From positions 1-33,083 of IMG/VR virus record IMGVR_UViG_3300010151_000066: 33,083 nt of DNA; one strand, written 5' to 3'. Of the stretch, positions 1-27,116 are shown in pieces (position 1 is the stretch's first letter; each line of letters opens with the position of its first letter). The position numbers were made by a program, and so were the translations under genes. A model generated the notes under the pieces. That model was not told where the DNA came from. It saw only the letters and a list, made by a program, of their open reading frames with translations, and searched no databases. The stretch comes from a virus.

Positions 1-38
1 GCATACTTCTCGCGCATCTTCTTCATGTCAATTCCCAT
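1..38 (-). CDS. Start of a gene cut by the window edge (possibly gp32-like ssDNA-binding protein)
   Basis: Only the first 12-13 codons are present, reading MGIDMKKMREKY. An ATG at 36-38 is preceded by a strong ribosome binding site (TAGGAGG followed by five A residues), so the start is well supported. A basic, helical N-terminus of this type and the position next to a DNA polymerase-like gene would suit a T4 gp32-type single-stranded DNA-binding protein. With so few residues this identity is only a guess. The gene has its own upstream control region (sigma70-like promoter, inverted repeat and late-type element between 66 and 144). Confidence 0.7.
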   Translation of the reverse strand, partial: MGIDMKKMREKY

Positions 39-152: not shown

Positions 153-971
153 TCAAAGTTGAACAATTTCTCTTCCACACACGAGTGAATAGCAGAAATT
201 GTTGTCGTAATCGGTTTCAAATATTCCAAAACTCGTTCTCTCATCTTTTTCCCTCACTTGATTTCTAATCTTGTTATTCAATGTTGCATCCTCCTTGAGG
301 GATTGCCCACCGATTGCGTAATAATAGCGGGTTTCAGTCTTGCTGTCAAGAGAAAAAAACATTTTTTCTTCTCCGGTCTCGACGTTTACTATACCTACTG
401 TGCGTATGCGTGAAGTTGGAGCAAAAGGATAAAAAGTGCTCATTACTGGTTTACTATTGTTAAAGACGTTGAGGAAGTGAATCGCCGGGGCAATAGTTTG
501 ATTGATACTTATATAATAATCAACAATTGATACTTCGCCCACAATATCACTCACAGAAGAGTTATCAACCAGGATGATTTGTTCGAAAATGCCAGATCTA
601 GCATATTCCTGAAGAATGTGAAAGCTGGCGCGCTGTTGAAGACGGCCCGTTTCACTCAAAAGGTCTGGTTGTTCATATATGTAAAGGATTGTGATCTTGC
701 AATGTTTTATTGCCTCCAGGATCCTTAAAGATGCAGCAGAAATGTGTCCCGAACCACCTAAGATAAAAATTACTTCGCCATTGCAATTAAGAAAGTTCGT
801 GAGGTCGGGACACTCTCTTTCATATTCTTCCGGGTGGTCCCTCTCGGGAATAAGATAAAAATTTTTACCCTGTCTTGACTGCGTGTCGATGCAAAACACA
901 TTATATTGTGGATATTTTGTAAACTCTTCGGCAATATTACACCCACAGTTACCCAAACCTACGATATTCAC
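153..971 (-). CDS. Tubulin/FtsZ-like GTPase-fold protein
   Basis: A 272-residue protein whose first 12 residues (MNIVGLGNCGCN) fit the G-x-G-x-x-G-x-N nucleotide-binding loop that opens FtsZ/tubulin proteins. CIDTQ (27-31) sits where FtsZ has its NTD segment. VIFILGGSGHIS (67-78) occupies the place of the tubulin signature GGGTG(T/S)G but is degenerate. A segment around 96-137 (LYIYEQPDLLSE through IILVDN) follows the FtsZ strand-helix-strand pattern, and 148-168 resembles the FtsZ helix carrying the conserved Asn. I see no clear T7-loop catalytic Asp, and the C-terminal half is short. A nucleotide-binding, tubulin-related fold is likely; polymerisation or GTP hydrolysis is unproven. The GTG start overlaps the stop of the polymerase-like gene (GTGA), with GAGGAA upstream, indicating translational coupling. 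Confidence 0.7.
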   Translation of the reverse strand: MNIVGLGNCGCNIAEEFTKYPQYNVFCIDTQSRQGKNFYLIPERDHPEEYERECPDLTNFLNCNGEVIFILGGSGHISAASLRILEAIKHCKITILYIYEQPDLLSETGRLQQRASFHILQEYARSGIFEQIILVDNSSVSDIVGEVSIVDYYISINQTIAPAIHFLNVFNNSKPVMSTFYPFAPTSRIRTVGIVNVETGEEKMFFSLDSKTETRYYYAIGGQSLKEDATLNNKIRNQVREKDERTSFGIFETDYDNNFCYSLVCGREIVQL

Positions 972-2154: not shown

Positions 2155-3306
2155 TTAACCCCGGGCATTTTCAAAAATCTGATTGTCAATATACCGCATT
2201 ACTCGCCCAAAGTCAAACAAATCATACAATCTTTTTAAATGTTTTATCTTATTTTCCAAAAGGTGGGGGTGCCAAACAATACCCGCCTCCTTCATTCGCA
2301 CACGAAAATAGAATTCCACCCAGAACTTCTCATCGGGGATTTCACTTTCCAGCAAAGGCTTTCTTCTTATTTCACAAAGCTTAGTTGTGTTAAGGTTTTG
2401 TGGGTTGGCCATCGGAATTTTAATTACTGGTTCTCGGCGAACTAGAGAATTATAATATGTTATCAGAGTAGCTCGAAGAAAGTCAATATCTTTTATATCG
2501 GTTCTTTCATAATATTGTTCAAATAGATCCTCCACAGAACCAATACCATAATTGAACATAAATTTTTTCATTTCTTTTGTGGTGATATCTGCAACCAACC
2601 GCCATGGAACATTATAATCCAACTTAAAACCAAATTTTCTTGCAGCATTTTGAAAAAATACAAAGTTCCTATCTCTAAGGATCTTATCCCATTTGATCTT
2701 ATCATTATCATAGCTAAGATCTTTAAATTCCACAACCAAGCCCGTAAACCTGTGGGGACAAAAATCAGAAATTATATAATCTGTAAGCGTAATCGGAGAT
2801 TTTTGGAGAATCACGTCTCCAAACTCTAAAAACTTATCAACGAAATCATCAAAATTTTTCACAGAACCCTTGGACCCCTCCAGCCACGGGCCTGCATAAA
2901 ATTCAACGCTATCGGTGAGAATCCTCTGATAATCTTCAATGGGGTCTTCGTATGCTTTGGTGGGGGCAATTGTCAAAAGAAAAGTATCAATCACAGACAG
3001 ATTACCGCCGGAAAACCCTTCTCTTATGTGGGCCAACAACGCTTCGAAAGCATCTACCACAAAGTTAAGGGCACGATATTCAGGGCTGGAGTCAAAATGT
3101 TTTATAAATCTTTCCCGAACAACAATTGAATAGGCTTCCCTATCAATCTTCCCAAATAATACCTGATCACCGTGCCAAAAATCAATTCCATTTTCTTTAG
3201 AAATGAGTGGATAGGCAACACGAATATATCTTTTTCTCTGGGCGAAGGCCCTCTTTGAAGAAAGACCGTTTCTGCCCATTGGTGCTTCTGATTTTATTAT
3301 TTTCAC
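2155..3306 (-). CDS. Conserved-looking phage protein of unknown function, in the baseplate operon
   Basis: A 383-residue soluble protein with mixed alpha/beta composition, rich in aromatic and charged residues, with no signal peptide or membrane segment. I do not recognise the family. The start is GTG at 3304-3306, chosen because GAGG lies 8 nt upstream; the next ATG is codon 10. It follows the giant hub-like gene after a 53-nt gap (3307-3359) in which I see no promoter or terminator, and directly precedes the polymerase-like gene. Position suggests a late virion or assembly protein, but there is no motif to confirm this. Confidence 0.75.
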   Translation of the reverse strand: MKIIKSEAPMGRNGLSSKRAFAQRKRYIRVAYPLISKENGIDFWHGDQVLFGKIDREAYSIVVRERFIKHFDSSPEYRALNFVVDAFEALLAHIREGFSGGNLSVIDTFLLTIAPTKAYEDPIEDYQRILTDSVEFYAGPWLEGSKGSVKNFDDFVDKFLEFGDVILQKSPITLTDYIISDFCPHRFTGLVVEFKDLSYDNDKIKWDKILRDRNFVFFQNAARKFGFKLDYNVPWRLVADITTKEMKKFMFNYGIGSVEDLFEQYYERTDIKDIDFLRATLITYYNSLVRREPVIKIPMANPQNLNTTKLCEIRRKPLLESEIPDEKFWVEFYFRVRMKEAGIVWHPHLLENKIKHLKRLYDLFDFGRVMRYIDNQIFENARG

Positions 3307-25123: not shown

Positions 25124-27116
25124 CTCTTTTCTCCATTTTAGAAATCAAATCTCTAATCTCTTTGTTTACTTCAAAAAGTATTTTTTCTTCATTATAAATA
25201 GTCTCTTGTTCTTCTGTTATACCCTTTGTCATCTGCTTGAGAGGTGAATAACCCGGGTAGAGTGTTCTGGGGGTTGATTTTGTTTTTTCGTTGCCCCATT
25301 TCGCTTTAATATTCTTCTTTCTCGGGCCCGTACTCTCGCGGCCATCACTTGTTACTGGTTTGTACCACTTGCCCTTTGATTTAGAGGTTGTAGTTTGCTC
25401 AGACCTCCCAAATGCGCCCTTCTTTTTAATTTTATGCCTTCCTTCTTCATCTCGCTTTGGTGGTTCGGCCAAGAGAAGATCATCGCCGGGAATTTCCTCC
25501 TCTTCACCCTCAAGGCCCTCAAGACCCTCAAGACCCTCTTCACCTTCGAGTTCTTCGCCACCAAGCTCTCCCTCAAGACCCTCTTCACCACCAAGCTCTC
25601 CCTCAAGACCACCCTCTCCTGTCGCCCCGGCCAACGCTTCCGATGCCTCGTCAGCAGCAGCTTCAAGGGCGGCTTCGAGCTTGCGATCATAGAACATTTC
25701 GCGCTGATTACGTAAGATTTCTTCATCTGAGAGATTAAAGATGTTTTTTGCAACCCACTGTCTACTAAAATAACCCTCTGTTGCGCCGGCGGCAATATCA
25801 AATTTAAGTTTCCAGTGTTCAAGCTCTTGCATTGCTGCAATTTTTGAAGGATTGTTAAGGGACAGGCTAAAAGAAATTAAATCTTTCGCCCTATAGCCAA
25901 GAATATATAAATGAATAATACCAACCTTCTCTAGCTCAGTTATAATCGATCTCTGCAATCTTTGAATCGTCCTTGCAAAGCGAATATCTTTTTGTGCCAA
26001 GGTTGTTTTGTCCTCTTCGCTCTCGGCGGAGTTCGAAAGATAAGATGCGGGAATCTTTAACGCTGAAAAGAGTTTATCTCTCAGGTATTTTACATCATCA
26101 ACGTCCCCTGTCCAAGAACCCCCCGCAAGTGTTTCAATCCTTGAAGTATTGCCACCTCTCGTTGGAATATAATAATCTTCTTCAATACTCAGAGGATTAT
26201 ATCGTAAGTCAACACGGCCCGTGTCTTGGTTAACAACCTGATTTCGCTTCATCTGCGTAACAACTTTCTGCATGTATTGTTCAATTTCATTTGGCGGAAT
26301 GGCACCAACATCAATATAAAACACACGTCGTTCTGGGGATCTCACAATGCGATATGCCATCATCGCATCTTCAAGGAGGGTTAACTGTCGCCAGATTCTC
26401 CTTGCGGGGTCCAGGACCGAAGTTCCATACGGGGCGAATTTATCATTTCCTAAAATACGAAAATGAGCGACTTGCCAATTTTCAAAAGTCATCCCACCAG
26501 AGTTCCACTGGTACTGGACGTAGTTTGGGTTCGTTGGATCTTCGCCTTCGAGCCTCTCAATTTCGTGGGCTGGGAGGCCAATGGCATTTTTAACGCCGTG
26601 CTCCTCATCAATATCAAGATAAAGAAAGAAGTCCCCGAACTTGCACAAAGACCGACACCAGCCAAAAAGATTAAATTCAAGATTCAATATATTTTCGTAA
26701 AGAGCATATAAAATTGATTTAAGCTCTTGGTTCGGGCACTCAATTTTAAGAAGGGGCTGCAACTCGCTCGATGTTGTCATCTCGTCGGCATAAATATCCA
26801 TTGCGCTCGCAATCTCAGGAGTGTACTCCATCTGATTAAAGTCCGCATATCTTTCAGAGCGGTTCTGAGTGGCAAGAATGTTTGCGTGAAGATGATCAAG
26901 TGGATTGTAGGTTGTTTTCTTAAACTGCTGTCCGCTCATAGAACGAAAGCGGTATTTATCCATCTTCCGTCTTGTCAAATCCCTCTCTGTCTGTGTACGA
27001 TAATTTACTATCGGACCAGAAAATAACTTTGTTAATTTTTTAAAAAGTTCAGATTTTGAATTTCTTGGATTGTTGTCCCGATTTATTCTTCGCCTGTTGT
27101 TGTAATAGCCAGCCAT
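25104..27116 (-). CDS. 20: Portal protein (gp20-like) with acidic repeat insertion
   Basis: A 670-residue portal vertex protein, longer than T4 gp20 (524). Typical gp20 elements include NRSERYADFNQMEYTPEIA, DIYADEMTT, MMAYRIVRSPERRVFYIDVG, MKRNQVVNQDTG with YNPLSIEEDYYIP, and KYLRDKLFSALKIPASYL. The dodecamer forms the DNA channel, nucleates head assembly and binds terminase. After the conserved core (about residue 500) comes a Gly/Glu/Leu-rich repeat block (25495-25625) that explains much of the extra length. The gene begins 3 nt after the terminase stop. Confidence 0.93.
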   Translation of the reverse strand: MAGYYNNRRRINRDNNPRNSKSELFKKLTKLFSGPIVNYRTQTERDLTRRKMDKYRFRSMSGQQFKKTTYNPLDHLHANILATQNRSERYADFNQMEYTPEIASAMDIYADEMTTSSELQPLLKIECPNQELKSILYALYENILNLEFNLFGWCRSLCKFGDFFLYLDIDEEHGVKNAIGLPAHEIERLEGEDPTNPNYVQYQWNSGGMTFENWQVAHFRILGNDKFAPYGTSVLDPARRIWRQLTLLEDAMMAYRIVRSPERRVFYIDVGAIPPNEIEQYMQKVVTQMKRNQVVNQDTGRVDLRYNPLSIEEDYYIPTRGGNTSRIETLAGGSWTGDVDDVKYLRDKLFSALKIPASYLSNSAESEEDKTTLAQKDIRFARTIQRLQRSIITELEKVGIIHLYILGYRAKDLISFSLSLNNPSKIAAMQELEHWKLKFDIAAGATEGYFSRQWVAKNIFNLSDEEILRNQREMFYDRKLEAALEAAADEASEALAGATGEGGLEGELGGEEGLEGELGGEELEGEEGLEGLEGLEGEEEEIPGDDLLLAEPPKRDEEGRHKIKKKGAFGRSEQTTTSKSKGKWYKPVTSDGRESTGPRKKNIKAKWGNEKTKSTPRTLYPGYSPLKQMTKGITEEQETIYNEEKILFEVNKEIRDLISKMEKRDEAQTQ

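Follow-up and report, generated by a model that had tools for sequence, protein, structure and literature searches.

We describe a new family of compact tubulin/FtsZ-superfamily proteins, encoded by a core gene in the replication module of a large lineage of uncultured marine T4-like phages. The member analysed here is encoded near one end of a phage sequence of 33,083 bases, the entire IMG/VR record, to which we refer as the window. By its fold and its nucleotide pocket, the family is a branch of the tubulin/FtsZ superfamily; by the features tested, it is not PhuZ, TubZ or FtsZ. The features on which the analysis rests are listed in Table 1.

Table 1. Features of the window. Residue numbers refer to the tubulin-fold protein.
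Feature	Position	Strand	Evidence and conservation
gp32-like ssDNA-binding protein gene, start (MGIDMKKMREKY...), cut by the window edge	1..38	(−)	N-terminus shared with the full-length gene in locus L001
Tubulin/FtsZ-fold gene	153..971	(−)	272 aa; GTG start at 971, stop at 155-153; ORF list, model, structure searches, dN/dS
H7-S7 segment, residues 172-187, site of the T7 loop	411..458	(−)	DSSP of both models, column counts
Second site, part 3: H165 in H7	477..479	(−)	182/182; 225/226 in the wider set
N157 in H7, guanine-contact Asn	501..503	(−)	181/182; hhalign
N137, guanine-contact Asn of the T6 loop	561..563	(−)	181/182; aligned by hhalign to FtsZ PN-D
Second site, part 2: Q121-EYA-R125-S126, end of H5	594..611	(−)	Q121 and R125 182/182, S126 181/182
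T4 loop GGSGHISA, residues 72-79	735..758	(−)	hhalign alignment with the FtsZ and PhuZ T4 loops
Second site, part 1: Q22-Y23	903..908	(−)	Y23 182/182, Q22 177/182
T1 nucleotide loop GLGNCGCN, residues 5-12	936..959	(−)	hhalign alignment with the FtsZ T1 loop
Family-A DNA polymerase gene, 394 aa	968..2152	(−)	DNA_pol_A E 3e-15; PHROG DNA polymerase; directly upstream of the tubulin-fold gene
Gene for a 383-aa protein	2155..3306	(−)	No Pfam or PHROG match; upstream of the polymerase gene; kept in 134/185 loci

The gene and its predicted fold

Across the tubulin-fold ORF, the plus strand is interrupted by stop codons. The GTG start and the stop codon of the polymerase gene, which lies upstream, overlap by 4 nt (GTGA); as read from the sequence, the start is preceded ∼8 nt 5′ by a Shine-Dalgarno-like GAGG. 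Comparison of the window gene with an 81%-identical homologue (locus L001) yielded a dN/dS of ∼0.08-0.12, and the differences at codon positions 1, 2 and 3 numbered 40, 20 and 116, respectively. From the dN/dS, the distribution of differences over codon positions and the overlap with the polymerase gene, the ORF is a genuine gene. Sigma-70-like promoter matches (11/12) occur at 116-144 (−), in the gap preceding gp32, and at 321-349 (−), within the tubulin-fold gene; overall, 11 matches were counted as compared to 7.1 in shuffled sequences, a slight excess only. RNA structure between the tubulin-fold gene and gp32 was not better than in shuffles (z −0.7).

The match of the protein to the Pfam Tubulin profile (PF00091; E 0.007, 17 bits) falls short of the curated cut-off of 33 bits. 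Profile searches of PDB sequences returned no tubulin, and the kinship is therefore visible through structure only. The AlphaFold model of the window protein, calculated from an alignment of 61 relatives (pLDDT 94.5, pTM 0.92), has a complete two-domain tubulin/FtsZ fold with a central H7. In a Foldseek search of the PDB, TubZ ranked first (4ei7, E 4.8e-13) and FtsZ next. According to VIA-align, CetZ (3zid) superimposed on 250 of the 272 residues with a Z-score of 25.2 and an rmsd of 2.6; FtsZ (2r6r), TubZ and tubulin had Z-scores of 23.2, 22.9 and 21.9, respectively, with model residues 1..272 covered. PhuZ chains were absent among the 50 VIA-align matches listed, and the closeness to PhuZ described below is profile-based. 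The model of a second family member, 41% identical to the window protein, had a pLDDT of 91.6 and a Z-score of 25.1 against CetZ. As modelled, the likeness of the window protein to tubulin/FtsZ exceeds chance. An earlier note, made from the sequence alone, had proposed a tubulin/FtsZ-like protein, and comparison of the predicted structure with FtsZ and TubZ bears this out, as it yielded a tubulin match and not a different Rossmann-like fold.

Profile-profile comparison modestly supports homology to tubulin/FtsZ. Using hhalign, the family profile matched PhuZ with an E-value of 1.1e-5 over the N-terminal half, and FtsZ with an E-value of 0.0075 over 159 columns, with the structural elements in register. 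In the positive control, FtsZ matched PhuZ with an E-value of 1.9e-9; the negative control, the Rossmann profile TrkA_N, gave an E-value of 0.0042 over 30 columns only. We also considered a Rossmann dehydrogenase-like NAD binder whose likeness to tubulin is due to chance, a reading that would account for the GxGxxG motif, for D29, which closes strand 2, and for the weak matches of some members to TrkA_N or Sacchrp_dh in Pfam (best E 0.0046). However, the TrkA_N alignment is short, Asn residues occupy the T6 and H7 guanine positions, and the top matches in both structure searches were tubulins, FtsZ, CetZ and TubZ, which aligned along the entire protein with its C-terminal domain included. Together, these observations largely refute an NAD-binding Rossmann protein, which we regard as hardly tenable.

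The model comprises S1 (residues 2-6), H1 (7-19), S2 (24-29), S4 (66-72), H4 (76-87), S5 (92-99), H5 (107-125), S6 (131-136), H6 (137-144) and H7 (149-171), named by analogy with FtsZ. In the model, the order of strands and helices matches that of FtsZ through H7. The strand-helix-strand block that had been read from the sequence at residues 96-137 corresponds to S5-H5-S6.

A fixed place in the replication module of one phage lineage

Among 185 distinct loci, the polymerase gene lies upstream of the tubulin-fold gene in 165 and the SSB gene follows it in 165, without any change of strand. These are followed by RecA (136/185), FEN (93/185) and a DnaB-like helicase (63/185), the last named by analogy with Flavobacterium phage immuto; the other neighbour families were checked. 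Among loci with room upstream or downstream, the single absence of a polymerase or SSB gene was that of the SSB in L231. No exonuclease domain was found in the 394-aa polymerase ORF, and its homologues in the lineage are likewise ∼394 aa and without one. The identity of the SSB was supported by a homologue in L038 that matches gp32 (PF08804, E 4.5e-15). An AGGAGG Shine-Dalgarno sequence precedes gp32 (38-55 (−)); its strength suggests a host that uses such sites, unlike the Flavobacterium host of immuto, the nearest deposited relative of the window by terminase.

The coupling to a polymerase gene, noticed initially in the window, extends across the lineage: the two genes overlap or are separated by ≤10 nt in 109/166 cases, and all 67 loci that were fetched by their polymerase and had room carry the tubulin-fold gene downstream. 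At L038:6404-7999, genes that we named by eye as thioesterase-like and nucleotidyltransferase-like lie between the two. Gene order is conserved for every gene of the module, and the linkage to the polymerase is therefore not specific to the tubulin-fold gene and is no proof of interaction.

Relatives of the protein are encoded in at least 583 IMG/VR stretches. By contrast, no close homologue was detected among 50,697 deposited phage records queried with the window protein and the protein of L006, and neither PHROGs nor NCBIfam holds a matching family. Immuto, Microcystis phage Mel-JY01 and LR756508 are related phages that possess the same module and have different small genes at the position of the tubulin-fold gene. 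A profile search of the three identified no member, and their sequences do not support a hidden tubulin between polymerase and SSB. The tubulin-fold gene therefore marks one lineage. A scan with the back-translated polymerase of LR756508 gave no match. In each of ten contigs of 131-191 kb, the gene occurs exactly once.

The earlier assignment to a T4-like phage is supported by the virion genes of the window, which encode terminase (gp17), portal (gp20), major head protein (gp23), head protease and tail sheath of T4-like families. The portal protein has a long, acidic Gly/Glu/Leu low-complexity stretch near its C-terminus (∼25,290-25,700 (−)). The Far-T4 phages are similar in being uncultured, T4-like, marine and freshwater, and in their T4-like virion genes; the text of the Far-T4 paper mentions neither tubulin nor FtsZ (PMC4360716). 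No such tubulin family is mentioned in the literature searched, and further papers may do so. One match was to a bacterial record (L089; CP070664.1, a WOR-3 MAG). We rejected it as cellular or prophage because the match lies in a phage piece bounded by runs of N. At ∼5.5-10.8 kb of this locus, the 'chromosome' encodes polymerase, the tubulin-fold protein, SSB and RecA between N runs, and the piece looks like a scaffolding artefact in the public record.

The place of the gene bears on a further explanation, in which the protein is a mini-FtsZ that stops host division, either by capping the FtsZ of the host or by assembling together with it. Unrelated phage inhibitors are known to block host division, and a cap could suitably be made of an FtsZ-type fold in which one face is defective. 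Nevertheless, the identity to FtsZ is 11-14% only, the gene keeps a set position within the replication module instead of lying among early host-takeover genes, and strong constraint acts on it across the lineage, in which it is a core gene in single copy. We therefore consider a decoy of host FtsZ very improbable.

A degenerate nucleotide loop and a nearly invariant second site

Conservation was counted by column in 182 distinct full-length family sequences, and residues were equated with those of FtsZ and tubulin from hhalign and general knowledge, not by structural superposition. The motifs VGLGNCGCN, CIDT and GGSGHIS, on which the earlier note relied, are present in the minus-strand ORF of the window. 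The first contains the T1 loop, which lies at the end of strand 1 and has the family pattern GLGxxGC[NA] (G5 181/182, G7 182/182, G10 179/182, N12 106/182). The T4 loop departs from the signature GGGTG[ST]G, reading GGSGHIS in the window protein and [GS][SACG][GS]x[IV]S[GA] across the 182 sequences. The two Asn residues predicted to contact guanine are nearly invariant. We take N137 to occupy the position of β-tubulin N206, and N157 presumably occupies that of β-tubulin N228 and S. aureus FtsZ D187; four residues before N157, position 153 is aromatic (Y or F in 142/182). The guanine contacts are conserved in ∼95% of members, which indicates that the nucleotide matters in most lineages.

No catalytic acid of the T7 loop is conserved at residues 164-188 in the 182 sequences, the best column (185) being E/D in 115/182. 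N168-V169 was ruled out as the 'NVD' of the FtsZ T7 loop because it lies 11 residues from N157, as compared to about 20 in FtsZ. A non-equivalent position could furnish an acid. In the window model, H7 is followed by coil alone until the C-terminal domain opens with its first strand at residue 189, and H8 is therefore missing; the model of the second member likewise has no H8. The window model ends with a strand (259-266) and six further residues. As the protein stops with its last strand, it has no H11 or C-terminal tail. The degenerate T4 motif and the want of an obvious T7 acid, both pointed out for the window protein, thus hold over the 182 sequences. The accompanying guess, nucleotide binding without canonical hydrolysis, is consistent with the conserved guanine Asn residues at the level of sequence.

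The peak of conservation was not confined to the nucleotide loops: Y23, Q121, R125 and H165 are each present in every one of the 182 sequences, and E48 and E51 are conserved in at least 177. By topology, Y23 precedes strand 2, Q121-S126 close helix 5 and H165 belongs to the final third of H7, an arrangement in which the four invariant residues would face away from the nucleotide. This second site may be part of the structural core and not a binding surface.

Addition of the tubulin-fold genes fetched by polymerase gave a wider set of 228 sequences, 226 of which cover the guanine sites. The guanine Asn was lost in 12/226 (L343, L330, L351, L313, L060, L299, L303, L306, L338, L340, L297 and L354), with N137 substituted in 12 and N157 in 11. 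Their segments align without gaps, and 11 of the 12 have Glu or Asp at position 75 of the T4 phosphate loop, as does just one of the remaining sequences. On a tree from which these columns were left out, the losses require a minimum of 5 changes, corresponding to three clades (support 98-100) and two single sequences. The pocket-less genes are intact, of normal length and in the same position, and retain Q121 and R125 in 12/12 and H165 in 11/12. Since the guanine Asn was lost repeatedly while the gene and the second site were kept, the pocket is dispensable in several lineages and the second site is not. Judged from their sequences, the pocket-less members may be natural nucleotide-free tubulin-fold proteins.

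Comparison with known systems and proposed function

Tubulins encoded by phages are known from jumbo phages that form a nucleus and from plasmid-like phages, and some nucleus-forming phages are without PhuZ. PhuZ, the tubulin-superfamily protein of nucleus-forming jumbo phages, is the closest by profile among the systems compared and also has a degenerate T4 loop. It differs from the present family in length, 314-344 aa in ten PhuZ sequences fetched versus 272 aa, in agreement with the earlier remark that known phage tubulins are longer. Moreover, PhuZ of phiKZ matches both phrog_4733 and TubZ_C_2, whereas neither matched the window protein at E ≤ 1. Unlike PhuZ, the family has neither the H11 tail nor the T7 acid, and it sits in the PolA-gp32-RecA module of T4-like phages. 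TubZ, a partition tubulin of plasmids and phages, which has the best Foldseek E-value in the PDB and a Z-score of 22.9, is set apart by the same two elements, as the family model is without an H11/C-terminal tail and the family without a T7 acid, and by the lytic, T4-like replication-module context of the family. Archaeal CetZ, compared by fold, and bacterial FtsZ match over the full length, and the T1 loop and the positions of the guanine-contact Asn residues align; however, identity is 11-16%, the T4 signature of the family is degenerate, and H8 and the T7 acid are absent. The C-terminal linker and conserved peptide of FtsZ are also absent, as the window protein stops after its last strand. 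The best viral structural neighbour, A0A6J5RW92 in BFVD ('FtsZ Cell division GTPase', uncultured Caudovirales phage; E 5.1e-13, TM 0.78 by query length), has 452 aa and is 14% identical to the window protein.

The earlier note had further suggested a cytoskeletal or DNA-positioning factor. In its PhuZ-like form, a cytomotive filament would rely on GTP-driven polymers to position the DNA of the phage or its site of replication, and might also carry capsids. The full tubulin fold, the profile similarity to PhuZ, the degenerate T4 loop shared with it according to hhalign and the guanine contacts conserved in most members are consistent with such a function. However, a dynamic spindle of the PhuZ type depends on GTP turnover. 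PhuZ requires its T7 Asp for dynamics, whereas the T7 acid is not conserved here; T7/GTPase mutants of PhuZ form non-dynamic filaments and DNA centring fails; and the C-terminal H11 tail, which the family does not have, is critical for PhuZ polymerization (PMC7950403). In addition, the nuclear-shell protein chimallin (phrog_4795) was not found in the ten contigs of 131-191 kb, which are possibly incomplete, and the phiKZ control was positive. Finally, members without the guanine site are kept in place. Together with the absence of H8 and of a TubZ/PhuZ-type tail, their retention makes a GTP-driven cytomotive filament less likely, and we consider this function doubtful.

Most tubulin-superfamily proteins polymerize, and longitudinal assembly is usual. 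A static filament or nucleotide-stabilized oligomer, assembled with GTP and without turnover, could compartmentalize replication. The conserved guanine contacts fit this possibility, as do the non-dynamic filaments of PhuZ GTPase mutants (PMC7950403). By contrast, H8 and T7, which normally contribute to the longitudinal interface, are reduced in the family, and pocket-less members exist. Overall, we judge static assembly improbable.

The lack of a T7 acid, of H8 and of a tail, together with a pocket that can be lost, leads us to favour a non-cytomotive role over a dynamic spindle like that of PhuZ, with the tubulin fold serving phage replication as a scaffold or accessory of its machinery. We give this function an even chance of being the correct one; the guanine contacts kept by most members and the prevalence of polymerization in the superfamily speak against it. 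In most members, GTP or GDP would be bound as a structural or regulatory ligand, and GTP would not be hydrolysed by the canonical trans mechanism. The protein would act as a monomer or static oligomer, and its working surface would be the invariant Y23/Q121/R125/H165 face opposite the nucleotide, perhaps in contact with the translationally coupled polymerase. Because of this coupling, the polymerase is the first candidate partner. More tentatively, the tubulin fold may be an obligate replisome accessory, for example a partner of the exonuclease-less family-A polymerase, acting through the invariant face with GTP in a structural or regulatory role that was dropped in several lineages. If this is true, the family would be the first of the tubulin superfamily with a nucleotide-independent core function.

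These data identify a core gene, present in single copy and overlooked by annotation pipelines, in a T4-like phage lineage that is abundant in the sea, and widen the range of the tubulin superfamily. Natural variants that have or lack the guanine site, together with the lineage-wide loss of the T7 acid, make it directly testable what a tubulin fold can do without GTP turnover.
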